From Pagrus major (Eukaryota > Chordata > Actinopteri > Spariformes > Sparidae), in assembly GCF_040436345.1 (NCBI RefSeq), contig NC_133221.1:6446663-6510662 (forward strand): 64,000 bases of DNA, given 5' to 3'. Each line of letters starts with the position of its first letter. Within the stretch, counting starts at the first letter, position 1. Positions 2,843 through 53,630 of the stretch are shown here, piece after piece. The notes below the pieces were generated by a model. The model did no database searches, had not been told where the DNA came from, and saw nothing but the letters and a program-made list of their open reading frames with translations. The position numbers were made by a program, and so were the translations under genes.

Positions 2843-3291
2843 CGATCAGCCACAACATTTAAACCACTGACAGGTGATGTAAATAACATTGATCTTGTTA
2901 CAATTCAATGTTCTGCTGGGAAACCTTGGGCCCTGGTCTTCATGTGGGTGGCAATTGACGTACACACCTTCATGGCAACGGCACTCCCCGATGGCACTGC
3001 CCCCCCAGCAGGACAATGCGCCCTCACACACTAAAAAAATTGCCCAAGTGGTAACCTGGCCTCCAAATTCCCCAGATCCCAATCCGATCGAGCATGTGGG
3101 ATGTGCTAGAACAAATCCGATCCATGGAGGCCGCACCCCCCAACATACAGGACCTGAGGATCCCGGTGCCAGACACCACAGGATACCGCCAGAGGTCTTA
3201 TGACCATACCTCGACAGGTCAGAGCTGTTTTGGCTGCACAGGGGGAATCTGGACAATATAACGTAGGTTGTTTTAATGCTGTGGGTGATCA
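2843..3291 (+). mobile_element. Internally deleted Tc1-like DNA transposon
   Basis: The left end (cgatcagccacaacattt) and the right end (gttttaatgctgtgggtgatca) are inverted copies of each other, as in the teleost Tc1-like family whose ends read GATCAGCCATAACATTAAAACC. Between them only the 3' part of the transposase survives. In the plus frame from about 2907 one reads the pieces QQDNAPSHT and PNSPDPNPIEHV, which match the second and third parts of the Tc1/mariner DDE catalytic domain. The N-terminal DNA-binding region and first catalytic Asp are missing, and frameshifts break the tail. It is a dead, non-autonomous copy. The family is confident; exact boundaries are good to a few bases. Confidence 0.85.
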
Positions 3292-14179: not shown

Positions 14180-15105
14180 TTCCTGAGGCCCATAGAGCAT
14201 GCGCACCACTAGCTTCCGGTGTAGCGCCCGGCTAACTTGGTTAAAATAATTTAATCATGCAGCTCTTCTAGACTTCTAGCTCAAAAAAAATTATCCACCA
14301 TTTTATAGAGGCTTCTTTCACAATGTAAGCTTATGGGAAAAAGTGTTACCTGGTGGTGTAATTACACAGTTTGGCCACTACAAAAACTGGCTTCAAAGCC
14401 TGGCGCTCCTTCTGGGGGCTTGATGCTAACTAACTCCAGGCTAATCGAAACCGGGTGAGGAGGTGGAGCACAGGTGGAGCTGAAGCAAGCCTAGTTACTT
14501 TTACAAGTTTACTGAGTGTGTTCACACATAAAGAGGAGCAAATTTCACCTCATGAGTTTGACTGCGGGTTAATTTGCCCCAAACAGCCACAATACTTAAC
14601 CTTAACTGAACATTAGCTTCAAGCTAGCAGCAAAGTTAGCACTCACCACATACTCTGTTTCTCTCTGCTGTCCTGCAGTGTCTTCTTCTCCATCTCTCCT
14701 CTGTCCAGTCATTACGTATAATACATTTCCCCTCCATTCCGCAGTCACTTTCAGCACTTTTTAATCCCAAAAGTTTAAAAAACAAACTCTATGTCCGCTC
14801 TTCGCCTCCTGGTGTTTTCCTCCAGAAGCTCCGCGCTCTGCCCGCGACTGTCTGCCGGTTAAAGCTCGTTAACAAGAGTCGCTGGTTGATCCACAACACC
14901 TGTCTGTCTCTCCTCCGGTGTGTTAGTCCAGTTAATCACACACTCAGCCGTATTATTTGTCCGATATTTGCATTAAAAATTCTCCAAACGGCATCAACAC
15001 CACAAATAAGTCCGAGGGATCAAGTTCAGTGGCTGTAATGAGAAGCGAGCAGACACCTGTCACTCAAAGCAGCCACGCCCCTAATCATGCATAACTTTAA
15101 ACCTT
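14180..15105. mobile_element. Non-autonomous teleost DNA-element cluster
   Basis: The sequence 14800-15100 is a stretch I associate with a widespread non-autonomous teleost element; telling words are gtgttagtccagttaatcac, ggctgtaatgagaagcgagc and ccacgcccctaatcatgcat. 14200-14460 (gtaattacacagtttggcca and similar) appears to be another part of the same or a nested element. There is no intact protein. Boundaries and family name are uncertain. Confidence 0.5.
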
Positions 15106-15340
<235 letters not shown>

Positions 15341-15399
15341 ACCAAAACTGTATGTAAACATGTTTATTTTTGTTGTAAAGATGGGGCATTTTAACATTG

Positions 15400-16078
15400 A
15401 CTCACTTTTGGAGCCTGTCTCAAGTGGCCATCCAAGGACCTGCAGAGCTAAGTTGCATTGTGGGTAATGTAGGCACCAGATTTGAAAAGGAAGAATAATG
15501 CGTGAAATAAAAGGTGATACCTCTGGTTCTGCTGTATTGATTTTAATCATTTGTTTTTAAACTCTCCATAAATGCTGCGTCCAAATGTCCTCACTTTACC
15601 ACATTCGCAGACTTGCAGACTTTGCGGGCGCGTCCGCGGGAAGTCAGCTAGTCTTGAGGGCCGTCCAAATTCACATTTCATCCAGTCCACAAAGGCCCTT
15701 AAGAGGACTTTCTGCAGACTTCCACATCACGATACAGAAATATGTAGAAGTAAAGGTCATAGAGCTAAGCAAACTGAATTAATTTTTGTAGTCTTACAGA
15801 CTGTCAATCAGCGGCCTATGTTTGCCGCACGCACTCGCAGACTTGATGTGATGAGCGTGAACGCGTCACAGTAAGTACGACTGTATGTTGGACCAGTGGA
15901 CGCCTACATTACCCAAACACAGCCAGTGAGTGATATCACTGGAGGCAATTTATCAGATTACCTGCAGCTTCCTCTGGAGCCACAAAAGGCTTTACGCTAC
16001 GTTTTCACATGTGCAGTAGTACTCCTCAAGACCTGTAAACACACTTTAATGTGTGAAATTGGTGGCGTTACCCTTTAA
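15400..16078. mobile_element. Foldback MITE (family A) split by an insertion
   Basis: A central left piece (15452-15490, gcattgtgggtaatgtaggc) and a right arm (15902-16078, ending aattggtggcgttacccttt) are recognisable from the family A copies. Between them, 15570-15890 is unlike family A and rich in CpG (ttgcgggcgcgtccgcggga), so another sequence has inserted or replaced the centre. The outer left arm is missing; the AT microsatellite lies just upstream. Confidence 0.65.
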
Positions 16079-24106: not shown

Positions 24107-26755
24107 ATGGGAAATGAGAATTCCAAGAACAAAGAGGCTACCCAGGTAACATGACAGGAGTTACACAATACACCTGTAATGCCATACACGTAGCTTCTGA
24201 AGCAGGAGCAAGATGCATGTCGAAAAGTCTGTCTTGGACTAAAGGTTTGGATTGTTCAGGGCTATCTCTATTCAAATGTAGCCAACATGGAGCATTATTA
24301 TCATTAGTGTTGTCATGATACTGACATTTCTAACCTTTACACAATACCTTGAAAAATATAAATATTCAATACCATTTTTGACACCACAGGAGAAGATTGA
24401 CACGACTTTGGGGGGAAAACATAATAAGGCTTGTTTAAAGTGTGTTAAGAGCAACAGCATCTTAGTTAATTTACTTTCTGACAAGGTGAGACTAAGGAGA
24501 GCGTAAACTAAAGTATTGATACTCCAAAAAAGTGAAAAAATATTGATATGTATTGATATTTCAATACTTTTGACAACACTAATTGTTAAACTATGTTTTA
24601 TAGAATGGGACGATTCCTGAGAAGCATGAAAATGGATCCGTGAACGTCCTCTCTGCAAACGTCACATCAAATGGATTAGAGATTGATGGTGAGTCAGTGC
24701 TTTTTTTATGTATTCTTGTTGTGAAGTCAAACATGATCATGTTAACTGTAAAATCATTTGGTGGTAATGTGTGATATATAAATCCAAACAGTGTCACTGT
24801 CAAATTCTTTCATTCTGAACCCGAACCTAACGATAAGTGCAGATCCGACTTATTTTAATTGTTCTTTTATGTTGTTGTATCTTGTCTAATGGGAATATAT
24901 CGCATGTCAGATCTTTATATGTCCATGTTGGCTCAGTCCTTTGGACTCTTATAATACTCTGTAAACACAGTGACTCCCAGCTGGATAATGTCTGGAGTCT
25001 TCCAATGTAAACTATAGGCGTAGTCTAAGACATTGATAGAAGCAACTGTTTATCCTGTCACGGTGTGCCTTTGCAGCGACAAGGATTCCCGCTGCCACTC
25101 GAGTTTGTCTAACAGCTAATGTTGACGCTGGAGATAAAGATAATGTCACTTTCTCACGTCGACTGGCCCATATTTACTGGATGATGCATTGCACAACCAT
25201 GCATGGGTTTAATGTTGCATGCATAGTGACAACTGTGAACTTCTTTGGACTTCAGTTTGTCAGTAACATTTGGTGATATCAAGAACATTCACACAGTGTA
25301 ATCTGACCTATAAATGAAAACTAGCAATTCAGGTTTTGTGATAACAGATTTAAATCTCCTATTTTGAGAATAAGTGCAACTATTCTGTTCACATTTCAAG
25401 AAGGGGCTCTTCTTTTTTCGCAGTTAAAGGTGAGACAGTAATCCAGCAGAATGGCGGGACCCCCTCCTTAAACCATTCCACTGAATCAACCGAGCCTGAT
25501 TATGTTGTAGTCGAAACACAGTGTCAACATGTCGAGGCTGCGGTCATTTCCGAAATCCCTGAACCCACCATCCAGAAGGAGGAGGTCAAGAAAAGTAAAG
25601 AGGAAAAAGGTCGTCTTTTCGGCAAGATGTTCAAAAAGAAAGCAGAACCTCCGGCTGATGTCAAGAGTGCTCAAGAAAAAGAGAAGTCAGGTGAAGATCA
25701 GACGGATGCAAGCCCTCCTGCCGCTGATCCACAGCCGGTGAGCGCACTCTTTACTGTATGCTGATTTTTTAATCACACATTAATTTGAACTATACTCTAA
25801 TTTTTTTTTCAAGCAAACAACAGTTAATCAATTCTAACAGATGCTGCCTGCAAAATCCTGATAGAGATCACCTCTGTGCCACAGAGCTTCATTGTTCTTG
25901 TTCTGTCCTGTTGCCAGAAAATCCATTAGATAAGACACTCAGGTCACACTCCCTTCACATTTCCAGAAATTTCATGGTCAGCAGGAGGACATTACCAAGT
26001 AACATATTTGAAATTTCTGTGAAATTAAATCGACTCAAATTGTATTGGAAATTACACCAGTATTATTTATTAATAATATTCAGCTATTTTCCAATAAGCA
26101 GTTAATAAATAACTTGTAATTTCTTGAATACATTTCCAGGAAACTTCCAACTGGTCTGACATTTTAATTTCCAACTTATTTCTGTCCAACATCTGCAGGT
26201 CAGTAAACTGAAGTGCATCTTTTAAACATTTGTATTTATATAATTTGCACCAATTCTTTTGCTCCAAAAATGGCATGATCAGCAGAAGTTAAGAAGAAAT
26301 TATTAGCTATTTATTAAGTGCTTATTGGAAAATAGCTGAATGTTATAATCAAACAATACTAGGATAATTTCCAGTACAATTTGAGGTAATTATTGTGGTA
26401 ATTTGATGTTATTTCAAAGAAATTTCAAGTATGTTGCTTGGTAGTTAGTCTGTAAATGTCCAGACCTGTAAACTGAAGTGTTACCGAGGTTTGAATGTGT
26501 GTTAATATGTGAGTAGAAATAGTCTCCAACACGTGCAGCTGTTTTTTTTAAAGAAAGATTTAGCCTTTTAAAAAAACAAAAAATAAAAAAAACAATATTT
26601 TTGAGCCATTTAAAAAAATGTATATCTTCAGGCTAAGTGCTAAAGACAGGAGGGAAGGGAAGTCAGAAATCCTTGTTGGTTTTTGTCTTTTTATGGGATT
26701 TGTTGACATAGAAAAATACCAGTTTTATCCTTTATGTTTTTACTAATAGTGTATA

Positions 26756-26795
<40 letters not shown>

Positions 26796-29700
26796 CTCTT
26801 AAACAATCTGCCTGCCACTTTTCTGAAGTCACTTGAATTCAGATTAGATTTTCATAGCTGTACATAAACCCTTCCATAAACATATAGCAAAAAAGAGAAA
26901 TAAAAACTTTCTGTAAACATGAAACGATGACATAACTGAGAAACAAACCCCCCTCCAAACATCCTCACATCCCATAATGCACTGCAACACACCAGCCATG
27001 CAAAACACACTACCTGACTTAAAAATATTTAGTCGTTGTTAGCTCAACGACTTCAGATGTGAGTTAAACTGGTTTTGAAGCGTCAGATTTTAATATTAGT
27101 TTCAGCTTCTTTGTGTTTAGTATTGGTCAGGATGATTGAAAAGTGTTACTGTAAATATATGGAGCAGAAAATACATTAAAAAATAAAGCAATCCAATACA
27201 ACAACACAACCAGTTACAGAGTTATATAATTAAAACCTCTGTGACACAACTTAAAAACTGTTTTAAATTAAGTACTTACTGTAGGCATTACAATGTAGAG
27301 GGTTTTTTTTTGTTTGTTTGTTTGTTTGTTTTATTATCTGACTCAGTCACAGTGTGATCAAGCACATGGTTGTCATATGAATCCCGAATTACTGTGCAAC
27401 TATATTTGATCTAAACATGAATGTTTTTTTACGATAAAGGAGTCGGGCTCAAGTAGAGACGAAGCTGCCGCCATGATCGTCGCTGAGCACAGGGAGGACT
27501 GTGAATGTCCATGTCACAAAGCGGAAATGTCAACGCAAACGGACAGAAAGACCGAAGCAGATATTTCAACGCAAACTGGTGAAGACGGTGATGATGATAC
27601 AACCACTAATACCGAGGGCCCAGTGGAAGAGGTTGTCGCAGCACTTGAAGAAGATCAACTAAATGAATCTGTTGTCATCGCTGAAGAAGCTGTTGAAGAG
27701 ACTGCTGATGAGGAACCCCGAAGGGCCCAGACAGCTGGGATCATCATTGAAGAGGTCGTCATGGAGAACAATATATATGAGAATATAGTGTTCAGAGCGG
27801 AGCGGGTGGAAGTTACCGACAATTTTGAAATCACTCACATCCATAGCTACAATCCTGAGGAAGAGAGAGTTCAAGAAACCGAGCCAGAAGTTGCTGCAGA
27901 GCCAGAATCCATTAAAGAGGGTGAAACTGTTGACATTTTTGAGGAAACTGTGACATTGGAGATCTCCAGCCTTCCGAAAGTGGTGGCAGATTGTGTTGAG
28001 GTGGTTTTCGCTGCTTTTTCTGAATCCACTGACTTTGCTGCTGTAAACATGTCGGAGCCAAGTGTGAATGAAGTAATTACCGAAGGCAATAGTGAAGGAG
28101 CCAGAGACATATCAGCTGATGTAGTGCTGATTGAAACCACTGAACCAAAAACTAATTCTGTCACTCCTGAGGCCGAGAAAGCAAATGGTGTTCCCTCCCT
28201 GGACGAAGTGACTACGGTGATGGAAATAACCTCAGAGGTTGTTTGCGAGGAGCCAAATCCTCCAGCTGCACACAAAGAGATGCCTGAAAGAGAACTTTCT
28301 GTCCCTCTTGTGCCTAAAATTATAATTATCGAGAAATCTTGCCATAAAGGGGTCACCGCTGATGAGGCTGTTGCGGTCGAGGATGTATCAGGAATGAGTG
28401 AAGGAGTAATCATTGTGGAGGCTCCTTCCAATGAGCTTATCACCACTGAGGAACTTCCCCAAGATGTTTTAAATACTCCTGTTGATGAAGTCAAGTCTGA
28501 GTCCATTCCGGAGGTTGTTACTTCAGATGAGAAAACTGAGGTTTGCAAAGGTGTGACAGCTGATGAGGGACCAGAAACAGTTGAAGAAGCAGAACCATGG
28601 CCTGTCATTGTCAAAGACGATGCTGAGATGATACCAGAAGCAGCAATTGATGCCCTCTCTCAAGAGCTCGACCTTTGTGCCATCACTCATCAGGAGCCTG
28701 CGGTGGATAATGGCTCCCTGTTGGAAGAAGAGGTCATCGCTGCAACAACTTTTGGGCCCCTTTCTGGAGAACCACAAGCAAATGTTTCCATTCCAGAGGA
28801 GCCAATTGAGACAGCGGCTAAGGAGATGAATGAAGAAGCTGTAATCTCAGAGGAACCTGCAAAAGAGAATCCAAGCCCATGTGAAGAAGAAGCAACCACT
28901 GAGGTGTTGGTGAACATACTAGAATCGGTTGTTGAAGCGATTTCAGAGAGGCTTGTGGTCACTGAAAACATCAATGAGGCATCTGCAGATGTGCCACAGA
29001 TAGACGCTACTGGAGAGTCTGAGCCTTGCGTTTCACTCCAAGAAGAACTTGTCGAGGAGAATGTTGCCCCATCTTTGGCTCCTGTTGAAGAACCAACTGA
29101 TTCCAGTCATGTTATTTCTGAAGAGCCTTTGGAGGAGAGTGTGCGCCCTCTTGAGCCACAAGTGCGAGTGGTAATCCTGAAGACAATTGAAGATGAAGTT
29201 ACAGTGGAGCTAATCCATGAGTCAGATGATTCTGGTGATGTTGTAGCAGCCATTGATGAGAACTCTGAAGAATCTCATATTGCCACTTCAGATGAGACGG
29301 TAGCAGAGTGTGTTGAGGCTGTTCTTGAGACCGTCATAGAGGAAATCATTACAGAAGATGCCATCACTCCTCAGAAGCCTGCAGTAGATAATGGCATTAC
29401 CCTGGAAGAGGAGGTCATTGCTGCAAGACCTTTCGTGCCCCTCTCTGGAGAACGAGAAGCAAACCCTATCATTCCAGAGGAGTCAAGAGAGACGACTGCG
29501 GAGGAGATGAAGGGAGAAGCAACAGAGCCAGAAAGTGTTGAGAAGGACACAAATGTTCAAGCATCATCCAGTGAAGAAGAAGTTACCCAGATTGCTAGTT
29601 CTACTGAACATGTTGTATCTGGAGTATCTGAATATGTTTTGGCACAAGTTGAAACACCCCTAGAAATTCCTATAATCTCAGAGGAACCTGCGGAAGAGAA

Positions 29701-32700
29701 TCCAAGCCCCTGTGAAGAAGATGTAACCACTGAGGTGATGGAGAACATACTAGAATCAGTTGGTGAAGTGAATTCAGGGAAGCTTGTAGTCACTGAAAAC
29801 AAGGTTGAGAAACCTGCAGATGTGCCACAGATGGATGCCACAGGAGAGTCTAAACCTTGCTTTCCAGGCCAAGGAGAACTTCTAGAGGAGAAAGTTACCC
29901 CAGGTCTTGTTGTTCTCAAAGAACCAACTGATTCCAGTCCTGTCATTTCTAGGGAGCCTGTTTTGGAGAATGTGAGCCTTCTTCAGCACCAAGTGCTGGT
30001 CGTAATCCAGAAACATGGAGGTAAAGTTTGTGAATCAGATAACTCCTGTGACGTTTTAGCTGTCGCTGATGAGAACACTGAAGATTCCCATATTGCCATC
30101 TCAGATAAGGCGGTAGCTGAGTGTGTTGAAGCTGTTCTTGAGACCATTGTAGAAGAAATCATTACAGAGGGTGCCATCACTCCTCAGGAGCCTGCACTGG
30201 ATAATGCAATTTGCCTGAAAGAAGAGGTCCTTGCTGCAACACCCTTCATGCCCCTTTCTGGAGAACAAGAATCAAACATTACTATTCCAGAGGAGCCACG
30301 TGAGACAATTGCTGAGAAGATGGATGAAGAAGCTACCAAAGTTTTATCAAATGAAATTACAACAGGGTCAGAAAGTGTTGAGGAAGATACAACTTTTCAA
30401 GAATCATCTACTGAAGGAGGAGTCATCAGGGATGTCAGGTCTGATGAACCAGTTGAAGAAAAAACTGAAGTATCTGAAGATGGTTTGACACAAGCTGAAA
30501 CACCCAAACAAATCCCTGCAATCTCAGAGGAACCTGTAGAAGACAATCCAAGCCCCTGTGGAGAAGATGCAACCACCGAGGTGTTCGAAAACATACTAGA
30601 ATCAGTTGTTGAAGTGTTTTCAGAGAACATAGTTGAGGAACCTGCAGATGTGCCACAAGCAGACGCCATCAGAGAATCTGAGCCTCGTGTTTCATTTCAA
30701 GAAGTCTTGGAGGAGAACGTCACCCCATCTTTGGTTGCTGTAGAAGAACCAGCTGCTATCAGTCATGTATTTTCTGAGGAGCCTGTGGAAGAGAGTGTGA
30801 GCCTTCTTGAGCCACAACGGCTAGTGGTAATCATCGAGACAACTTATGAAGAACTAACAGAGGAGACAATCCAAGAATCATTTAATTATCGTGACATTTT
30901 AGCTGCCGTTGACAAGAACGCTGAAGATTGTCAAAATGCCACTTCAGATGAGTCTGTAGCGGAGTGTTTTGATGCTGTTCTTGAGACCATCGTAGAGGAA
31001 ATCATTACAGAAGATGTTGCGGCTCAGTTTGTGATTTCAGGTGAGGTAGCACCAAAGATCATCACAGAAGGACACACTGAAGAGAAGGTGGACAATATTT
31101 CAGGTGTGAGCTCGACAGGTTCAACACGAAGGGTACAGATGACTGACGATACACCCATCACAAGTACAGACATGGAAACTTTACTTGCTAGGTTGCAGTC
31201 AGCGTGTACGTCCATTGTTGAAGAATCACCGTATAGGCTTGATGGTTTAAACATGTCTTTCCTGGGATGCAGTATTACTGTTACCATTCAGGTGGCCCCA
31301 AAGGAAGAACAGCAGTAAAATGTTGAAGGTACTGTCTGACATAGTTTGTGTTTAGAAAAATATTGGTCTACCTCTTCAGGATATCATGTGTTTAATTGAT
31401 ATGGATTGTGAAATGATTTTTGTTTTATAAAACTGCAGAGTGGATCTTTTTATATAAATATCATCAACACAAAAACCTCAATGTAAAGTATTTAAACATT
31501 TTCCAATAAAATGACAAACGAAAACACTGAAAAATGTTGCGTTCGTGCACGATTTTGTACATGATTTATTCACATTCTTTGGGTCAGTTTTTAGTAGGAA
31601 ATAGTAGTGACTTTAAAAAGAAATATGAAATTTTAGTCAGGCCACACTTGAAAACTGGGTAACAATTTATGTTAGGGAACAATATTAAAGGGTAGCTCCA
31701 CCAATTTCAAAAATTAAAGTGTGTTTTCAGGTCTTAGAGGGTACTTTTGTATATGTAGTAAAATAAAAAAAATTAAAAAAGTAGTATAAAGCTTTTTGTG
31801 GCTCCAGAGGAAGCTGCATGTAATCTGATAAATACCGTCCAGTGATGTCAGTCAAAAAGTTGCATTGTGGGTAATGTAGGCAGAAATGCACTCCTCTAAC
31901 ACTGTTGGACATTGTTGGACAGTTTAAAAACAAATCAAGTGATATCGTCTTTGTTATTCAACACATTCTTCTTACTTTTCAAACCTTCTAGCCTACATTA
32001 CCCACAATGCAATTTGGCTACTGAGTGACATCACTGGAAGCAATTTATCAGATTACATGCAGCTTCCTCTGGCGCCACAAAGGGCTTTATACTACGTTTT
32101 TAACATATGCAATAATACTCCACAAGACCTGTTAACACACTTCAATGTATATAATTGGTAGAGTTACCCTTTAACCATTTACAAGTTGCTTATAAGGCTG
32201 TATATAAATCACATATAAGCTCTGTATTAGGCATTATAAAGTGCTTAGTCATGCCTTATTCTGCATAAACAAATGCTCAAACTACTAAGTTAGATAGTAA
32301 TGTGGGAGGTTGTTGCACATGAACCATAACCCAAAATGGGGAACATATTGAGATAGACAGACTTTATTTAGAGTTATATAGACACTGTTAACCTCGGTAG
32401 TTTTGTGTTTCATTGTGTAACAATGGACAATATTTATTAGGTGCTATTAAAGGGGAACTATGTCGTTTTGGAGAAGAGGTTAAAACCCATAATTTTAATA
32501 TTTACAATATTGATGAGGTAATAATACAAACTCTGAAATATTAGTTATTTCCATGAGCTGTTCTCAGAGGAAAATTAGCTCCCCGGAGCAGGTATGAAGT
32601 ATGACACTGTGTTGTCCTTTAAGGTCAGTTTGTTTGTTCAGTTTATTCAGTCATGAAAACAAAGAGTTTGCTTGTTTAGTTTGTGTGGGCATAAAAATTT

Positions 32701-35700
32701 GTCAATGAAGATCTTTTCTCTAATGATTCCCCAAAACTACATAGTGCTCCTTAAAAGGAGAATAACTATTCTTGTGGTACTGCCGCCTTATAAGGCCCAT
32801 ACAAAGTCTAACAACTTCCTTCCTTATTTAAGAAAAAGTCCTCCTTAAAGTCCTAGGAGTTGTAGAATAAGGCATTAATAAGTGCTTTATAATGACTAAT
32901 AATGAGTCAATATACTACTACTATGCATGCTAGTAATCCAATAGTAAATGGTTAATATGTGTCCCACAATCTAAAGTGTTCTTCTGAAAACTGCAGTAAA
33001 CAGATTCAGTAAAAATGATCTTAAAGTCAGGTTTGCTCATTTTAAAGATATTCACCATCAGGACACAGCAAGGTATTTGAGTTTCCTGACATTTCTCAGG
33101 GCATAACTCTCACACATTGTTGAATATCAATGAGTGAGGGGTGGGACACACACATTAATAAAAGGGTGATTGTTGACAATGCCCCGAGTAGGCAGAGGCA
33201 TGGTTGGAATTGTGCTCCCATCTCAATGCTGCGATTAAGACACTCACTGCTTGCGTATCAGCGCCGCTGCTCTAACATAATTCTCAAAGGCTGATTCTTT
33301 GTGATGGTGTTATAGGAGACAGATAACCTAAAGCAAGAAGCAGAGTCATTACCGGAGCCGGAAAGTGTGACTCCAGGCCAGGGTCCAGAGGAAGAGAAAG
33401 CTCCTGAAACTGAAGACGGAAACAGTGATCCTGCGGACAACCAAGAGGACAGTGACCCAGAAGAGAATCCAGTTATGAACTTCTTCAAAACACTAGTAAG
33501 TGACACGATTTTTAGAAATTAAGTGCGCTTCGTGTGGACTTGATATTTCTAATTGCTTCTCTTGTAAAATCAGATTGCTTGAGTAAACTTAATTGGGAAA
33601 TTGCTGTGATTAACAAGTGCAAGAACAAATCAACTCTTGTTATCTTCAACTATAACTGAAGGAAAACAACTGATTAAACAACAAAAATTAAGTTAATTTG
33701 TGTTCTAATTTTTACTGTAAGCTTCACTGAAGAAAAATGGTAATTTGCCTGATAAAGTTGAGATCACTGATGATAAATTCAGTGACGACGCTGTGTCTAA
33801 ATTTGATTTTGTGTGATTCCTCTTATTCTGCGTTGAGGAATGTGAGTTTAATGGAAGCATCCATAACTAAATCTGCCATTATGACAGAGCCTGATGGAAA
33901 ACCTACGACAAGCAGCTATTGTATTCCCTCATCATCGTGCTGTCTTTTGGACTCATGCTGTTTTAAAGAGTTACCATTGCCCTAGCCCCATGCTAATCAA
34001 GTCTTTGAACATGCGGGAATGTGGTGGCCTATTGTTCAACCCATAGTGTGAGCTCACAAGGGAGGCCTGTGCAGTTGGAAGTTGAGATTTGTGAAGATAG
34101 AGCGAGGGCAGGCCTACGCCATCTCCGGAGCACAATGGCTGTCACAATGACAGCGCATGTACTGTATGTGCTCTGTCAGGGACCTCAGTGTGCACTCTGT
34201 GCCTCGGTTAGCTTATCATAAAGGCCTATGTCTGCATTCATGAAAGGCTTCTGTTTTATCTAAATAATTTAGTTTCTGTTCCTGTTGCATCAGCTATATA
34301 TGCTGATGATTCTCCAGGTTTTACACTGCCAGCCATACAACTTAACATAATACATACAGATTTAACATTTGGAGGATAAGCTTGGTTGTTTTTAATCTTG
34401 TTTTCTGTGCTGCATGAATGAAAGTTGATTGAGAACGGTCATTTTTCCTTCCCTTGTTGCACAGGTGACTCCCACTAAAACAACCAAAAAGGAAACAGCT
34501 ACTCCAGATGCCACAAAAGACCAGGTGAACATATGATCATGAAGCATTACATGACATATAAAACATGATTAATTAATCCTTGTGGGTTTATTTCAAATGG
34601 TTTTCATGTTCTTGTTTGATTTTCCTTCAATACCCAGTTTACTATCATGCATATTTTGGTTTACAAAGCTTTATGAGAGATGTCGGTAATGTTACAGGTT
34701 GATTTTTTAACTAGCTGATAATATATTTATTATATAGTCATAATTTTATATTCCCATTTCTTTTGGGATTTTTAGTTTTTGCAGGTTGCAAGCTGGCATC
34801 CATTCCTGTTCATTTCTGTTTCTGCTTGAACTGAGGCTCCATTTCGTTTTTTAAGATTGCTTTTTGTAGATATTTGTTTGCTTCAGTTTAACTTAATCTC
34901 TAACTGCTTCCTCTTTCTGTTGCCAAATAGTCCCAGAAGGAGGCCCAACCAGCGGCAACTACTACTGTGAGCACATTAAGTGTTTAAATTTGTGTAACAG
35001 TAGCGATATTTGTTTGCTAATGTTGCATTTTACATATTAATTCAGTTTAAATAATTTATAAAGACGAAAACATGATCACTGCTTTGCATTTATAGTATCA
35101 TACCTCACCTCAAATTTCCTTTGTGTATCTTAATGTGTATTTGCTGTTAGAGGAGTCTGTGTGGACAGTTGGTTTTTCCACAGCAAAGCGTTATTTTAAC
35201 ACATGTTCTCTTGAAAAGGTTGCACAAGTGTCGGAGCCGCCTGCAGCACCCAAAGGAATGTCAATCCCACCACCACCTCCTCCGGAGCCGCCGAAAATGG
35301 AAATCAAAGGAGAGCCAGCTGCCAAACCTGTAAAACCCACAGCGAAAGAAGAACCAAAGGCCGCTGCGAAGGAACCCGAGTCCTCAAAAGGAAAATCAAC
35401 CAAAGATGCTCTGAGCAAATTCTTCCGTCCAAAGGTAAATAAACTGCAAACATGGGTGGGATGGTTATTTATGTAGCCTCTCAGTGAGTGCATCTTCCAC
35501 AGTCTTTAAGATATACGTACGAACGTGCTATAGAGTGAAACATACTGTATGTGAATTCGAGGTACTGCTAGGCTTCACGGCATCCAAAGGCAAGGGCGCT
35601 TCAGCAAGCGGAGCCCAGACTGCAGCAGCGGTACAGTAGATTATCGTATCCTCAAACTAACCACGGCTCATCCTGCTACTAACCAAACAAGAGCTGATTA

Positions 35701-38700
35701 GTCTGGAGGTGGAAGAAACTGAACAAAATGCTGTTTAAAAATTGGAACTGCAATTGTGTAGAGTCGTATTTAAACTGGAAAAAAGTCTCATATTACCGCC
35801 AATGTTTCTACCACTGTCCATTTCTCCATGATACATTATATTACCAACATTTAAATTTCATTAGTGATTCATTTAATCACAATACTTTAACTTTCGGGGA
35901 AAAACACTGCCTGCTTGCTTACTTGCCTGGAGTCAGATGAGAAGATCCATACCACTCTTGTGTCTGTGAGCAAAGTTTGGAGCAAAAGTCCGGAGGCGAT
36001 TAGCTTAGCTTAGCATAAAGACTAGAAAAGAGGCAGCGCCTACAACTTATCAGTTTGTTTAATCTATGCTGTCAGTTAATTCTTCTCGATGTTAACAACA
36101 ATTATTCATGAGTTAAGCTCATAGTTTCCTCCTGCTTTCAGTCTTTATGCTAAGCTAAGCTAAGCTAATCACTTCCTGACTTTGGCTCCATACAGACGAG
36201 AGTGGTATTGATCTTCTCGTCTAACTCTCAACAAGATGTCTAACTATTCCTTTAACCAGTTATATATATTAGTCAGCATTCTTTACCATGCTAACATGTT
36301 AAACTCTTCATAATTAAAGCTTTTCCTCTGCTTGTTCTTTCTGTCTTGCTGGCTTCAACTAACAACAAAAACCCCTTCACTGTCCTGCAGACAATCAAGG
36401 AAACACCAAAGCCTGCAGTCGAAGTAGAAGTACAGGTAAACCAGAGAGTACGCTCATTCATCTCAGGAAATGTTGTATAAATGTATTCTAATGTCTTTTA
36501 AGGATGTTCACTACAGCTTTTTCAAATGTCCATCCTAATTTGCATCTCAGAATAAAAAAAGTAGTTTTGCTCTGCAGGAGACACCAGTGGAGGTGCCAGA
36601 ACCAGTTGTAGAAGTCCAGGTAAATCAAAGGAGAGGTCTCACTCTTGGGTGTTTTTCTTTTTCAGGGAGTGGAATAATCATTTGATCTTTATTACAGTGA
36701 ATCACACCTCCAAGTTCTAAGCTACATAGGTTTATTTTTACATGTTCTGATTCATTTGCATCTGCTCAGAGTGAAAAAAGTGTTGAAGCTCATGAGACAG
36801 CCGAGGAGGTGGTGAAGCAAGAGCAGGTAAATGAGCAGGAAGCGCTCGAGGATATTAATTCTTCACGTTCTTCACTCTACAGGCGTCTCTGACATGATGT
36901 TAGAACAGATGTACCAATTATTATGCTGCACCAAATATGACCTTTCATTCATTTCAATTAACACACATGAAATTTGGCATTTGCTGTTTTAAAAAAAAGA
37001 TTTATTTTTTCATGTTTTGATTCATTTTACATTCTATCAGCTATTTCTGTTTGTTTGAGTCAGCCGATGATTTATCGCATTTGAATCAATGGGAAAACAA
37101 GTATGTTTCCTCTCCTGCAGATGGTGGAAGAGGCACCACAGCCAGTAGTAGAAGATGAGGTAAATTAAAAGGACACGTTGGGAAATCTACCGAGAATTAC
37201 ACTAGATTAGAAAATCTAAATCACCCTCATATCTTGCCTGTTAAGTATGAGGCCGGTTAGCCTAGTTTAGCATAAAGACTGGAATCAAGGGGAAACAGCT
37301 AGCCTGGGTAACAAAATCCACCTACCAGCACCTCTAAAGCTCAGCAATAAACATGTTACATTCCATTAAACCACAGCTTTTTTCCCCTTAACTTTCCATT
37401 ATGACTTTGTATTGATTGAAATAACAAAATATAATATGAATTTAATTACTTTTGGACAGAGCCAAGCTAGCTTTCCACCCCCCCGTTTCCACTCTTTATG
37501 CTAAACTAGGCTAACCATCTCCTGCATCATATTTAACAGGTATCAATCTTCTCAGATCTTCTCAGATAAGCATATTTCCCAACGTGTCAAACTATTCCTC
37601 TTCAGGAGAAGAGTCTCACCTTCAATGGAGATACATTTCCTTCCCTATTATCTTTCCTTCTTTTCTTTTTACAGACAATCACTTTCTTTACTTTCTGTGC
37701 ATGATGGTGTGGGCTTCTTTATTCTTACAGGGACCGCTTCTTATCAGACTTGTCTGCCTCCTTTTCTGCTCTGACGCTGGATATTTCCCTTTTACTTCAC
37801 AGCAGCTCCTTCCTACACCCTGTCAGCTTCAATGATGGTCATGCATTTAATGCATAAATAGCTCATGATATGTATTCTCTGCTCTGCTTTCTTTTTTTTT
37901 TGATTAAAGAAGGCGGATCCCTCAAAAGCAGGCACCTTGGAGGCTGCTGCAAAGCCAGAGCCGCCACCCGCTGTTCAGGAAGAAAAGAAACCAGCCTCAA
38001 AATCATCCTTCCTGACTCTCTTCAAGCCTAAAGTAAGGACCTCTTCACCTACGCTTATATGGGTCTTTAGAATATCATACATTAGCGTGAATTGTGGTGA
38101 AAGTAGCGAACAGAAAGTAACAGATTCGTGTGAATTTGAGGAACTGTTAGACCACATGACTACAAAAGTCCAGGCGGCCTCCACAAGTGGAGTTCGGCTC
38201 CTCAGGAGGACAGCTGGAGTGGTAAATACAGAAAAATGACCTCTTGAGATGAGACATCATTAACCAGAGTAATTTCATCAATTACATCTGGAATTAAAAC
38301 CTGCTCTAAGTATTTTTTTTTTTTTTTGTCCATTTGTTAGAATCATAACAAAATACATCAGTGCTTCTGTGGTCATTTCACATAATGTTGCCTTCACTAA
38401 GACACGCTGGATCCTAACAACCAGTCACTTTAATGTCACTTTGACATCTGATGTCATCTCAAAGTCCATCTGAGCACATGAGATATTACAGAAAACAGTG
38501 GAGCTGCCGTAGGACTGAAATAATTCAGTTTTTCATTATGCGTCACAACACTTCCAGGCTGCTGATCCCAAAAAGGCGACCCCCGCCCCAGCTGCAGCAG
38601 CAGAGGCAGCTCAGACAGCCAAAGCCAAGGAGGAACCAAAAGCAGCGGCCAAGTCATCAGAGGCGGCCGCGGATAACAAACCAGCTGCCCCCCAAGCTGG

Positions 38701-39200
38701 AGATGATGCAGCCAGTGTGCCCAAGAAACTGGAGAAGAGGAACTCCATTCACTTGTTCTTTAAAAGTCTGGTAAGGAGATAATCTTTCCCTGCTTCTCAT
38801 TTTGAACAGCCCTGCCTGGTAAATATGGTTGCAGCTTCACCTCCACTAGATGGCAGCAGATACTCAGTGAGTAACTAAAGGTGTGGGGCCCTAATTCACA
38901 GTGCAGTGCACATCATGTTACACATCCTGACAATTGTTTTGCACAGTTAAACTTACAGTTAGGTGGTACTTTTAAGTTAGAAACTGTTCCACACAACTAG
39001 CATTGTAAAAACGAGGCTTCCATGAGATTACGTGGCTTTTTTAAAGAAAAGACTAATGCAGCAGATACTTTAATGAACAAACGTTTATGATTTTTTTTTT
39101 AATTCCCTTTAAATTTCAGGGTCAGAGACGTAACTCTTCAGAGGCCGGGGTCCAGACGGAGCCCGTCACCGTCACTCCAGCAGCTGAGAAGGCCAAATGA
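24107..39200 (+). CDS. BCAS1: BCAS1 (breast carcinoma amplified sequence 1 / NABC1)
   Basis: BCAS1 is a largely disordered cytoplasmic protein; in mammals it marks newly myelinating oligodendrocytes and binds dynein light chains. Coding exons are 24107-24145, 24604-24688, 25424-25737, [27440-31291 optional], 33316-33495, 34465-34524, 34931-34966, 35219-35434, 36391-36435, 36578-36619, 36770-36826, 37121-37159, 37910-38032, 38558-38770 and 39120-39200. Without the giant exon this gives 509 residues. The start MGNENSK resembles the human MGNQMS start (a possible N-myristoylation signal). NPVMNFFKTLVTPTK and the C-terminal HLFFKSLGQRRNSSEAGVQTEP match human BCAS1. Short FF/LF-K motifs recur: LFGKMFKKK, FFKTL, FFRPK, LFKPK, FFKSL, mostly at exon ends. 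All but one junction is phase 0, favouring alternative splicing. VQTEP near the C-terminus is a dynein-light-chain-type motif. Exon borders are by eye; the four short exons at 36.4-37.2 kb could be optional. Confidence 0.9.
25980..26450. mobile_element. Palindromic MITE (family C) in BCAS1 intron
   Basis: The left arm (25985-26115: ggacattaccaagtaacata, gtattggaaattacaccagt, cagctattttccaataagca) and the right arm (26298-26445: gcttattggaaaatagctga, ataatttccagtacaatttg, caagtatgttgcttggtag) are imperfect inverted copies over more than 120 bases. The centre is about 180 bases. No coding capacity. Confidence 0.8.
26753..26796. repeat. (ATA)n microsatellite
   Basis: About 14 ATA units in a BCAS1 intron. 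Confidence 0.95.
27440..31318 (+). CDS. BCAS1: Giant acidic repeat exon inside BCAS1, alternative 3' end
   Basis: One uninterrupted 3.88 kb reading frame follows an acceptor (tttttttacgataaag) and continues in the frame of the preceding BCAS1 exon (phase 0). It opens ESGSSRDEAAA, then a Met in the context GCCGCCATG (27473). It encodes 1,292 residues, extremely rich in Glu, Val, Ile, Thr and Ser. Counting from that Met: a Cys-rich CECPCH at 10-15; STQTD and STQTG at 20-24 and 32-36, which resemble dynein-light-chain sites; then three tandem units from residues 404, 631 and 902. Each unit starts IT(H/P)Q(E/K)PA(V/L)DN and ends EEIITE. A distinct last 70 residues include METLLARLQSACTSIVEESP. 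The frame stops with TAA at 31316, and AATAAA follows at 31505. A CAG|GTGGCC donor at 31291/31292 keeps phase 0 with the next exon (33316), so inclusion as an internal exon is possible. I know no globular domain for it. Confidence 0.85.
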   Translation, partial: ESGSSRDEAAAMIVAEHREDCECPCHKAEMSTQTDRKTEADISTQTGEDGDDDTTTNTEGPVEEVVAALEEDQLNESVVIAEEAVEETADEEPRRAQTAGIIIEEVVMENNIYENIVFRAERVEVTDNFEITHIHSYNPEEERVQETEPEVAAEPESIKEGETVDIFEETVTLEISSLPKVVADCVEVVFAAFSESTDFAAVNMSEPSVNEVITEGNSEGARDISADVVLIETTEPKTNSVTPEAEKANGVPSLDEVTTVMEITSEVVCEEPNPPAAHKEMPERELSVPLVPKIIIIEKSCHKGVTADEAVAVEDVSGMSEGVIIVEAPSNELITTEELPQDVLNTPVDEVKSESIPEVVTSDEKTEVCKGVTADEGPETVEEAEPWPVIVKDDAEMIPEAAIDALSQELDLCAITHQEPAVDNGSLLEEEVIAATTFGPLSGEPQANVSIPEEPIETAAKEMNEEAVISEEPAKENPSPCEEEATTEVLVNILESVVEAISERLVVTENINEASADVPQIDATGESEPCVSLQEELVEENVAPSLAPVEEPTDSSHVISEEPLEESVRPLEPQVRVVILKTIEDEVTVELIHESDDSGDVVAAIDENSEESHIATSDETVAECVEAVLETVIEEIITEDAITPQKPAVDNGITLEEEVIAARPFVPLSGEREANPIIPEESRETTAEEMKGEATEPESVEKDTNVQASSSEEEVTQIASSTEHVVSGVSEYVLAQVETPLEIPIISEEPAEENPSPCEEDVTTEVMENILESVGEVNSGKLVVTENKVEKPADVPQMDATGESKPCFPGQGELLEEKVTPGLVVLKEPTDSSPVISREPVLENVSLLQHQVLVVIQKHGGKVCESDNSCDVLAVADENTEDSHIAISDKAVAECVEAVLETIVEEIITEGAITPQEPALDNAICLKEEVLAATPFMPLSGEQESNITIPEEPRETIAEKMDEEATKVLSNEITTGSESVEEDTTFQESSTEGGVIRDVRSDEPVEEKTEVSEDGLTQAETPKQIPAISEEPVEDNPSPCGEDATTEVFENILESVVEVFSENIVEEPADVPQADAIRESEPRVSFQEVLEENVTPSLVAVEEPAAISHVFSEEPVEESVSLLEPQRLVVIIETTYEELTEETIQESFNYRDILAAVDKNAEDCQNATSDESVAECFDAVLETIVEEIITEDVAAQFVISGEVAPKIITEGHTEEKVDNISGVSSTGSTRRVQMTDDTPITSTDMETLLARLQSACTSIVEESPYRLDGLNMSFLGCSITVTIQVAPKEEQQ
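28682..31018 (+). repeat. Three tandem coding repeats of 227, 271 and about 281 codons
   Basis: Unit starts are 28682, 29363 and 30176, all in frame. Shared landmarks in order are LEEEVIAA / LKEEVLAA, PLSGE, IPEE, ISEEP with NPSPC, TTEV with NILESV, ADVPQ, VSEEP-like blocks, and AECVEAVLET(V/I)(I/V)EEIITE. Unit 1 lacks about 45 codons present in units 2 and 3 between the IPEE block and ISEEP. A weaker ancestral-looking copy (VADCVEVVF... NEVITEG) lies earlier, near residues 169-208. Confidence 0.9.
31505..31510 (+). terminator. BCAS1: Intronic poly(A) signal after the giant exon
   Basis: AATAAA lies 187 bases after the TAA of the giant exon and about 1.8 kb before the next BCAS1 exon, with T/GT-rich sequence following (tgttgcgttcgtgcacgatt). 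It would allow the giant exon to act as a terminal exon. Confidence 0.55.
31687..32172. mobile_element. Foldback MITE (family A), full copy
   Basis: The left arm begins AAAGGGTAGCTCCACCAATT and the right arm ends ATTGGTAGAGTTACCCTTT. Both arms, about 200 bases each, are inverted copies: tttgtggctccagaggaagc against gcttcctctggcgccacaaa, and gcattgtgggtaatgtaggc against cctacattacccacaatgca. It is flanked by TTAA on both sides, the target used by piggyBac-type elements; that affiliation is inference. Confidence 0.85.
32173..32447. repeat. Fragments of a second AT-rich palindromic repeat
   Basis: Words such as gcttataaggctgtatataa, gcattataaagtgcttagtc and gccttattctgcataaac are the partner arm of 32760-32990 (ggcattaataagtgctttat, ctactactatgcatgctagt). 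The family B copy at 32448-32754 appears to sit between the two arms. Confidence 0.5.
32448..32754 (+). mobile_element. MITE family B copy
   Basis: It starts TAAAGGGGAACTATGTCGTT, TTTTGG and ends CCAAAACTACATAGTGCTCC. The interior matches the copy at 23070, with ggtggcaggg deleted. Confidence 0.85.
32760..32990. repeat. AT-rich interspersed repeat arm
   Basis: It carries ccgccttataaggcccatac, ggcattaataagtgctttat, tatactactactatgcatgc and ccacaatctaaagtgttctt, words of a common teleost palindromic repeat. The matching arm is at 32173-32447. Confidence 0.55.
35895..36255. mobile_element. MITE family D copy in BCAS1 intron
   Basis: The left half has cagatgagaagatccatacc and gattagcttagcttagcata followed by aagactagaa. 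The right half has the inverse: gtctttatgctaagctaagc, gtggtattgatcttctcgtc and aactattcctttaa. The pairing of the halves is directly visible. About 360 bases, non-coding. Confidence 0.75.
37169..37605. mobile_element. MITE family D copy in BCAS1 intron
   Basis: It begins ggacacgttgggaaatctac and ends atttcccaacgtgtcaaact, perfect inverted ends. The interior has tagcataaagactggaatca, aaaatccacctaccagcacc and ggacagagccaagctagctt. It starts only ten bases after the end of the BCAS1 exon at 37159, so the donor of that exon abuts the transposon. Confidence 0.8.
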
Positions 39201-49893: not shown

Positions 49894-50307
49894 TTTAATT
49901 TATTGTCATTTTGAAGCAATGTAGTTTACAAACTTATTGTTGTTTTTATCAAAAATGTGAGCTGGAATGACAGTATGAACCTATACATTAAGTTACTATA
50001 TATGAAGTCTGCCAAATGTAGCTGATTTCTCACGGACTGAACTTAACATATATATACTAAGGTATAAATATGTTTTATCAGTGGCCAGAGGAAATGAGAT
50101 GTCTCTGCAGTTGATTGCTAAAAAGATACATTTCCTGTTTCAGTGTAAGGGAAGGCAACTCTCTCTATGTGGTTTATTTTAAACTGATTTTATCTCTGGT
50201 AAGGTTGTAGCTACCTGACTCTGTTTTGTATTCAGCAATGCCTAAAGACACTTTTCCCATTGTTCACAGGTTGGTAGTCATCTGAACCGTGTGAGCAGCA
50301 GAGGACA

Positions 50308-53630
<3,323 letters not shown>

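Follow-up and report, generated by a model that had tools for sequence, protein, structure and literature searches.

What an uninterrupted reading frame of almost four kilobases is doing inside an intron, and whether its product belongs to the gene that surrounds it, are the questions raised by the bcas1 locus of the fish Pagrus major. We analysed a window of 64,000 nucleotides (NCBI RefSeq assembly GCF_040436345.1, contig NC_133221.1, positions 6,446,663 to 6,510,662 of the forward strand), to whose positions all coordinates below refer; features lie on the plus strand unless stated otherwise. The frame, hereafter the giant exon (27440..31318; 1,292 codons plus TAA), sits in the intron 25738-33315, between coding exons 3 and 4 of bcas1; an earlier note on this DNA had located it between exons 4 and 5, and the count of coding exons places it one intron earlier. 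Judged from its signals, the giant exon is a candidate alternative terminal exon of bcas1, and this main claim of the explanation that we favour is held with moderate confidence.

The stop-to-stop open frame (27410-31318) comprises 1,302 codons and is the longest in the 64-kb window; counted from the acceptor at 27440, its product has 1,292 residues before the TAA at 31316-31318, so that the stop-free frame of 3.88 kb described in the earlier note is borne out, with its length corrected from 1,290 to 1,292 residues plus TAA. The remaining plus-strand frames contain 62 and 136 stops across the span of the giant exon, and this frame contains 0. In 300 order-1 Markov resamplings, the maximum open-frame length over both strands was 289 codons (mean, 149), and the probability of 1,292 stop-free codons under the codon-position composition of the frame itself is about 3e-14; a random frame of this length is, as had been asserted, essentially impossible. 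The G+C content at codon positions 1, 2 and 3 is 0.627, 0.380 and 0.365, respectively, a codon-position bias set in flanking intron sequence with a G+C content of 0.314-0.355. A log-odds scan places the onset of the coding signal at about 27458 and its end at about 31335, near the acceptor and the stop, with variation among single 15-base bins. Taken together with the repeats described below, these data support a coding exon with an acidic, tandem-repeat product within an intron of a BCAS1-like gene. An antisense open frame of 262 codons (27871-28659, minus strand) lies opposite the giant exon and probably results from the codon bias of that exon.

The connection to bcas1 depends on the preceding exons. 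The gene model is derived from genomic sequence, with exon ends picked by us from AG and GT dinucleotides and the open frame. Coding exon 1 (24107..24145; MGNENSKNKEATQ), common to both predicted isoforms, exon 2 (24604..24688) and exon 3 (25424..25737), which carries an FGKMFKKK module and ends in phase 0, encode 146 residues with an MGN start. These exons total 438 bases and, accordingly, the junction 25737|27440 is in phase, with phase 0 on both sides, in agreement with the earlier note. Splice sites were scored with weight matrices, taking eight bcas1 donors and seven other bcas1 acceptors as the reference. The acceptor at 27440 scores 2.16 bits, compared to 1.22 to 8.02 for the other seven; no other AG in 27440-27798 has an acceptor score above zero.

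The giant exon can be read as terminal because it has its own in-frame TAA, an AATAAA polyadenylation signal 187 bases past the stop (31505..31510, with a GT-rich stretch behind it) and no good in-phase donor near its end: the best phase-0 donor-like site after 31000 scores 0.69 bits, compared to 1.33 to 6.34 for the eight bcas1 donors. Furthermore, exons 4 to 14 complete a 509-residue frame without the giant exon. Taken alone, the terminal-exon anatomy appears fairly probable. The long form would then most likely replace the last 363 residues of the 509-residue form rather than add to them; the proposal that a domain is inserted into BCAS1 and triples its size is not supported, given the stop, the polyadenylation signal and the low score of the best late phase-0 donor.

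Several features of the sequence tell against a terminal exon of bcas1. The acceptor at 27440 is middling, ranking 30th of the 615 AGs in 25760-33315; AATAAA is frequent in AT-rich DNA; unit 2 of the repeat array contains in-phase donor-like sites at 29972 (3.53 bits) and 29735 (2.2 bits); a site at 31041 scores 7.31 bits, above every scored bcas1 donor, in phase 1; and a Kozak-like gccgccATGa occurs at 27467-27476, the possible start of a separate gene. The donor-like sites bear on an internal cassette exon, in which a donor inside the frame would join exon 4 to give a longer BCAS1 with the normal end, an arrangement close to that proposed in the earlier note. The score at 29972, a phase-0 site, lies inside the range of the bcas1 donors, and all downstream exons share the phase, yet this site cuts inside unit 2 while the coding signal and the open frame continue for more than 1 kb to the TAA; the strongest site, at 31041, would lead to a stop within a few codons after joining 33316. 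We consider a cassette improbable. The Kozak-like sequence, together with the single uninterrupted frame, its own stop and the AATAAA, would also suit an independent gene of one exon within the bcas1 intron, with the ATG at 27473 and its own promoter. Such a gene would, however, share the phase of exon 3 by coincidence (a chance of 1/3) and have a pyrimidine-rich acceptor at the start of its frame, and the coding signal begins some 15 bases ahead of the ATG, which is a weak hint; we assign a low probability to this arrangement.

If the giant exon is the terminal exon of a long bcas1 form, the next question is whether selection has kept it open. One 119-base family recurs along the exon, its copies lying exactly 681 and 813 bases apart, confirming the three diverged tandem units recognised earlier. 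With borders set by us, unit 1 occupies 28661..29347, unit 2 29348..30160 and unit 3 30161..31027; they are followed by 96 C-terminal residues (31028..31315) that have no Pfam or PDB match. The protein identity of the repeat units to unit 3 is 61-63%. All seven internal gaps in the DNA alignment of the units are multiples of three; this count omits five border gaps (4, 10 and 10 bases at unit starts, 24 and 24 at unit ends) because the borders are our choice. In a three-branch neutral simulation of the units (264 codon columns, 214 for unit 1; majority ancestor), 7.6 stops were expected, compared to 0 observed, and only 2 of 2000 runs were free of stops. Similarly, pairwise neutral runs without any stop numbered 9, 9 and 2 of 400 for the three pairs (kappa of 2.5).

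The amino acids themselves appear less protected, and this is the second body of evidence unfavourable to the explanation that we prefer. The ratios of nonsynonymous to synonymous substitution rates (dN/dS), estimated by the Nei-Gojobori method, are 0.585, 0.652 and 0.589 between units. Neutral simulations at a kappa of 2.5 gave mean values of 0.82-0.83, with 22, 75 and 16 of 400 runs at or below the observed ratios; the corresponding counts were 13, 29 and 6 at a kappa of 1.5 and 36, 100 and 37 at a kappa of 3.5. Being near the neutral simulations, these ratios imply weak constraint, at most, on the amino-acid sequence. The ratio of nonsynonymous to synonymous differences per site (pN/pS) in blocks of 25 columns ranges from 0.29 to 1.05, apart from one block with 4.88 that rests on a single synonymous change; low values, from small counts, characterise the segment ADVPQ.DATGES (0.25) and the helix at the unit ends (0.39). 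The reading frame of the units is better protected than their amino-acid identity. Thus, the earlier argument that in-frame spacing is a sign of coding selection is reinforced by the absence of stops and the in-frame gaps, and is weakened by dN/dS values only slightly below neutrality.

The same figures are pertinent to the possibility that the tail is translated but hardly constrained, that is, a frame that grew by tandem duplication and is tolerated without a specific role. The near-neutral dN/dS and the lack of any recognisable domain in Pfam and PDB are what such an origin would predict; three diverged units without stops, gaps that are all in-frame and the blocks with low pN/pS argue the opposite, and we regard this outcome as unlikely. 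In a search for older repeat copies in residues 1-407 of the tail, the scores against units 1, 2 and 3 were reached by 30, 56 and 6 of 300 shuffles, respectively, and a comparison of the same residues with the C-terminal piece gave a score reached by 30 of 300; the alignment of unit 3 to residues 1-407 is gapped and of low complexity and was not relied upon. The nonapeptide VADCVEVVF at residue 182 resembles the unit-end helix and is too short to count.

As modelled, the long form combines 146 and 1,292 residues into a protein of 1,438 residues and 155.6 kDa with a net charge of -259. The tail contains 19% Glu and 12% Val, and its net charge of -250 over 1,292 residues is spread along its entire length, all 13 hundred-residue blocks being negative. 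The tail product has no match to any Pfam family at E up to 10 and no relative in PDB at E up to 1; when pieces of the tail were compared with the same databases, nothing emerged except a DUF7556 line for unit 1 (E of 0.19). The likeness to neurofilament or MAP proteins suggested in the earlier note is therefore without sequence support. For unit 3 aligned with the other two units, AlphaFold2 gave a mean predicted local distance difference test score (pLDDT) of 43.1, with the highest block means (63-67) in the unit-end helices, residues 251-280; the last 176 residues folded alone had a mean of 42.0, and one helix and two strands close to the C-terminal end had block means of 42-57. Low pLDDT fits disorder and also a shallow alignment; from these models, the tail is probably mostly disordered.

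A few known proteins invite comparison. The giant exons of ankyrins and MAP2 are also very long optional exons that encode largely disordered scaffold regions in nervous tissue; they are internal, whereas that of bcas1 appears to be terminal, and no sequence likeness to them was found in Pfam or PDB. AKAP12 (gravin) shares with the predicted long form a myristoylated start and a very long acidic exon; unlike AKAP12, the tail has no AKAP family match and no significant anchoring-helix pattern. Another candidate is a PKA-anchoring scaffold, in which, as in AKAPs, repeated amphipathic helices would bind the RII docking domain. Helices with hydrophobic spacing do recur across the units, for example VEAVLETIVEEI. 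However, the RII pattern occurs 8 times in the tail versus 4.9 times in shuffled sequences, with 136 of 1000 shuffles reaching 8; a relaxed pattern occurs 7 versus 3.6 times, with 102 of 1000 reaching 7; and the helix moments do not exceed the shuffled maxima. With a helix pattern no better than chance and no AKAP family match, this candidate was rejected, and we hold it to be very unlikely.

Near the beginning of the tail, two tandem TQT (LC8-type) motifs, EMSTQTDR and DISTQTGE (27524..27583), start 12 residues apart. Two TQT within 20 residues were obtained in 19 of 20000 shuffles, and two anywhere in 427 of 20000. According to PMC3078936, the LC8 motif has TQT as its core, and we used the published consensus [D/S]KX[T/V/I]Q[T/V][D/E]. 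Measured against it, the motifs fall short in ways that count against their proposed function: both lack the consensus K, and the second lacks an acidic residue after the core. In the LC8 clients ASCIZ and GKAP, two closely spaced Q-centred motifs likewise lie in a probably disordered region; they differ from the bcas1 motifs in the consensus K, absent from both of the latter, which are candidate LC8 sites. The 509-residue form has a VQT motif in its last exon (39120..39200), and the long form would lose it; the TQT pair may replace this C-terminal VQT.

What, then, would be exchanged for the tail? The 509-residue form continues from exon 3 through eleven exons in 33316-39200, the length of each being divisible by three, to a C-terminus that reads GVQTEPVTVTPAAEKAK. 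When the 509-residue protein was compared with Pfam (E up to 10), the one match was myelin basic protein (MBP; PF01669), with E of 0.011 and 16.8 bits, below the curated cut-off of 22. Exon 4 alone has no PF01669 match. The 36-residue MBP-like piece yielded ten lines in PDB, four of which are MBP (2lug, E of 0.016; 1ymm, 0.083; 1fv1, 0.2; and the chimera 3pl6, 0.97), the remaining six being unrelated viral proteins (E of 0.78-1.5). The segments ENPVMNFFKTLVTP and ENPVVHFFKNIVTP are identical at 10 of 14 residues. The MBP segment matched by bcas1 is known from multiple sclerosis research as an immunodominant epitope.

Exon structure provides a separate check. A PF01669 search of the Pagrus major genome, exon by exon, returned four exon matches, in C16 and C17, which are taken as two mbp genes, and none at bcas1. 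The second exon of each pair ends ENAVVHFFRSF|GTAAGT in C16 and ENAVVHFFRTI|GTGAGT in C17; the next mbp exon starts |VSPAPPKS in C17 and was not found by pattern search in C16. In bcas1, exon 4 (33316..33495) ends ENPVMNFFKTL|GTAAGT and exon 5 (34465..34524) starts |VTPTKTT, with a phase-0 intron between them. The intron of the bcas1 module matches that of the C17 mbp gene in place and phase, and the mbp exon in C16 also stops at this residue. The C17 piece aligns to bcas1 with a score of 49, which 0 of 2000 shuffles reached (maximum, 42), and the C16 piece with a score of 31, which 1 of 2000 reached; these counts overstate the evidence because the pieces were picked after the match, the intron position being independent of that choice. 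On the basis of sequence and exon boundaries, it is likely that BCAS1 and MBP share an exon module, with convergence as the alternative. Among the listed titles and openings of abstracts, no description of a likeness between BCAS1 and MBP was found; other papers and full texts may differ.

Hydrophobic-basic FFK-type modules are distributed over 25424-38770 (FGKMFKKK, NFFKTL, SKFFRPK, LTLFKPK and HLFFKSL), and four of these five stand at an exon end. As modelled, the long form is without the MBP-like module and all later FFK-type modules, and the module pattern [FLMI]F[KRG] does not occur in its 1,292-residue tail.

In the scheme that we favour, splicing of 25737 to 27440 and cleavage after the AATAAA at 31505 would yield a protein of 1,438 residues and about 156 kDa, in which the 146-residue BCAS1 N-terminus (MGN, likely myristoylated, with one FGKMFKKK module) is joined to a polyanionic tail; skipping of the giant exon would yield the 509-residue form with several FFK-type modules. 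The N-terminus would keep the tail at the inner face of the membrane, the tandem TQT motifs would recruit LC8 as a dimeriser in place of the lost VQT, and the charged tail would act as an entropic and electrostatic spacer that opposes close apposition of membranes; the skipped form would carry MBP-like membrane-adhesive modules. The frame, the phases, the stop, the signal, the single copy, the repeat evolution, the charge and, in the modelled long form, the loss of the modules are observed here. Splice use, myristoylation, membrane position, LC8 dimerisation and the spacer role are the parts that we infer, and the opposition of a spacer to MBP-like adhesion is doubtful. The 509-residue form is itself acidic (net charge of -26 overall and -17 over the 363 residues of exons 4-14), so that the two tails are not a simple basic/acidic swap, a further point against the scheme.

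In its most pointed and rather unlikely version, bcas1 would be related to MBP and would carry its own antagonist: the skipped form would supply MBP-like membrane-adhesive modules, and inclusion would give a polyanionic, LC8-anchored, membrane-tethered brush that keeps the cytoplasmic leaflets apart. BCAS1 marks oligodendrocytes that are making myelin. Should this version be true, a single choice of splice and polyadenylation site would help set whether a myelin membrane compacts. If fish make a form in which an acidic tail of 1,292 residues takes the place of the usual modules, the pair of forms would amount to a natural experiment on module function, and an MBP-like module with a matching intron offers a concrete hypothesis on the origin and job of bcas1.

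The identification of the gene itself comes from several features. The name BCAS1 (NABC1) is our assumption, taken from the human protein; no search tool returned it. The 14-exon model gives 509 residues, within the range of roughly 500-600 expected of BCAS1, with an MGN start and a C-terminal VQT, as in the comparison protein, and the FFK-type modules and the neighbours are further points in common; the giant exon is absent from this 509-residue form. The naming is helped by an upstream prefoldin gene on the minus strand (Prefoldin_2, E of 3e-9) and by C2H2 zinc-finger exons downstream, within 50278-53412. These neighbours may be PFDN4 and ZNF217, as BCAS1 synteny would predict. In PMC9405932, human BCAS1 is given as 584 residues, with extra exons 1.1 and 6.1 of 5 and 45 codons, and both homodimerisation and an interaction with DYNLL1 are reported for it. 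No giant BCAS1 exon is described in the listed titles and openings of abstracts covered by our literature search, and other papers and full texts may differ; word searches of two papers returned no mention of BCAS1 or NABC1 (PMC3078936) and none of bcas1 (PMC7837478).

In the 785.9-Mb genome of the species, the giant-exon product has one match, itself (E up to 0.001, 6 scored candidates); it is therefore no repeated element, a second copy could not be detected, and a mobile element was rejected on the same ground. A pattern search for relatives of the 1,292-residue protein gave 36 matches in genome contigs and 5 in viral contigs, 0 of which were confirmed, and a 24-base exact pattern gave 0 matches in genome contigs; these collections cannot settle the conservation of a vertebrate gene. 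Among other features of the window, a long imperfect palindrome resembling a miniature inverted-repeat transposable element lies just past the giant exon (31685-32174; its arms measure 72, 101 and 34 bases and are 78-85% complementary), a remnant of a Tc1/mariner-like transposase was noticed by eye at 2883-3203 (Pfam DDE_3, E of 0.32), and a long simple repeat at 15101-15400 has Tyr/Ile frames on both strands.

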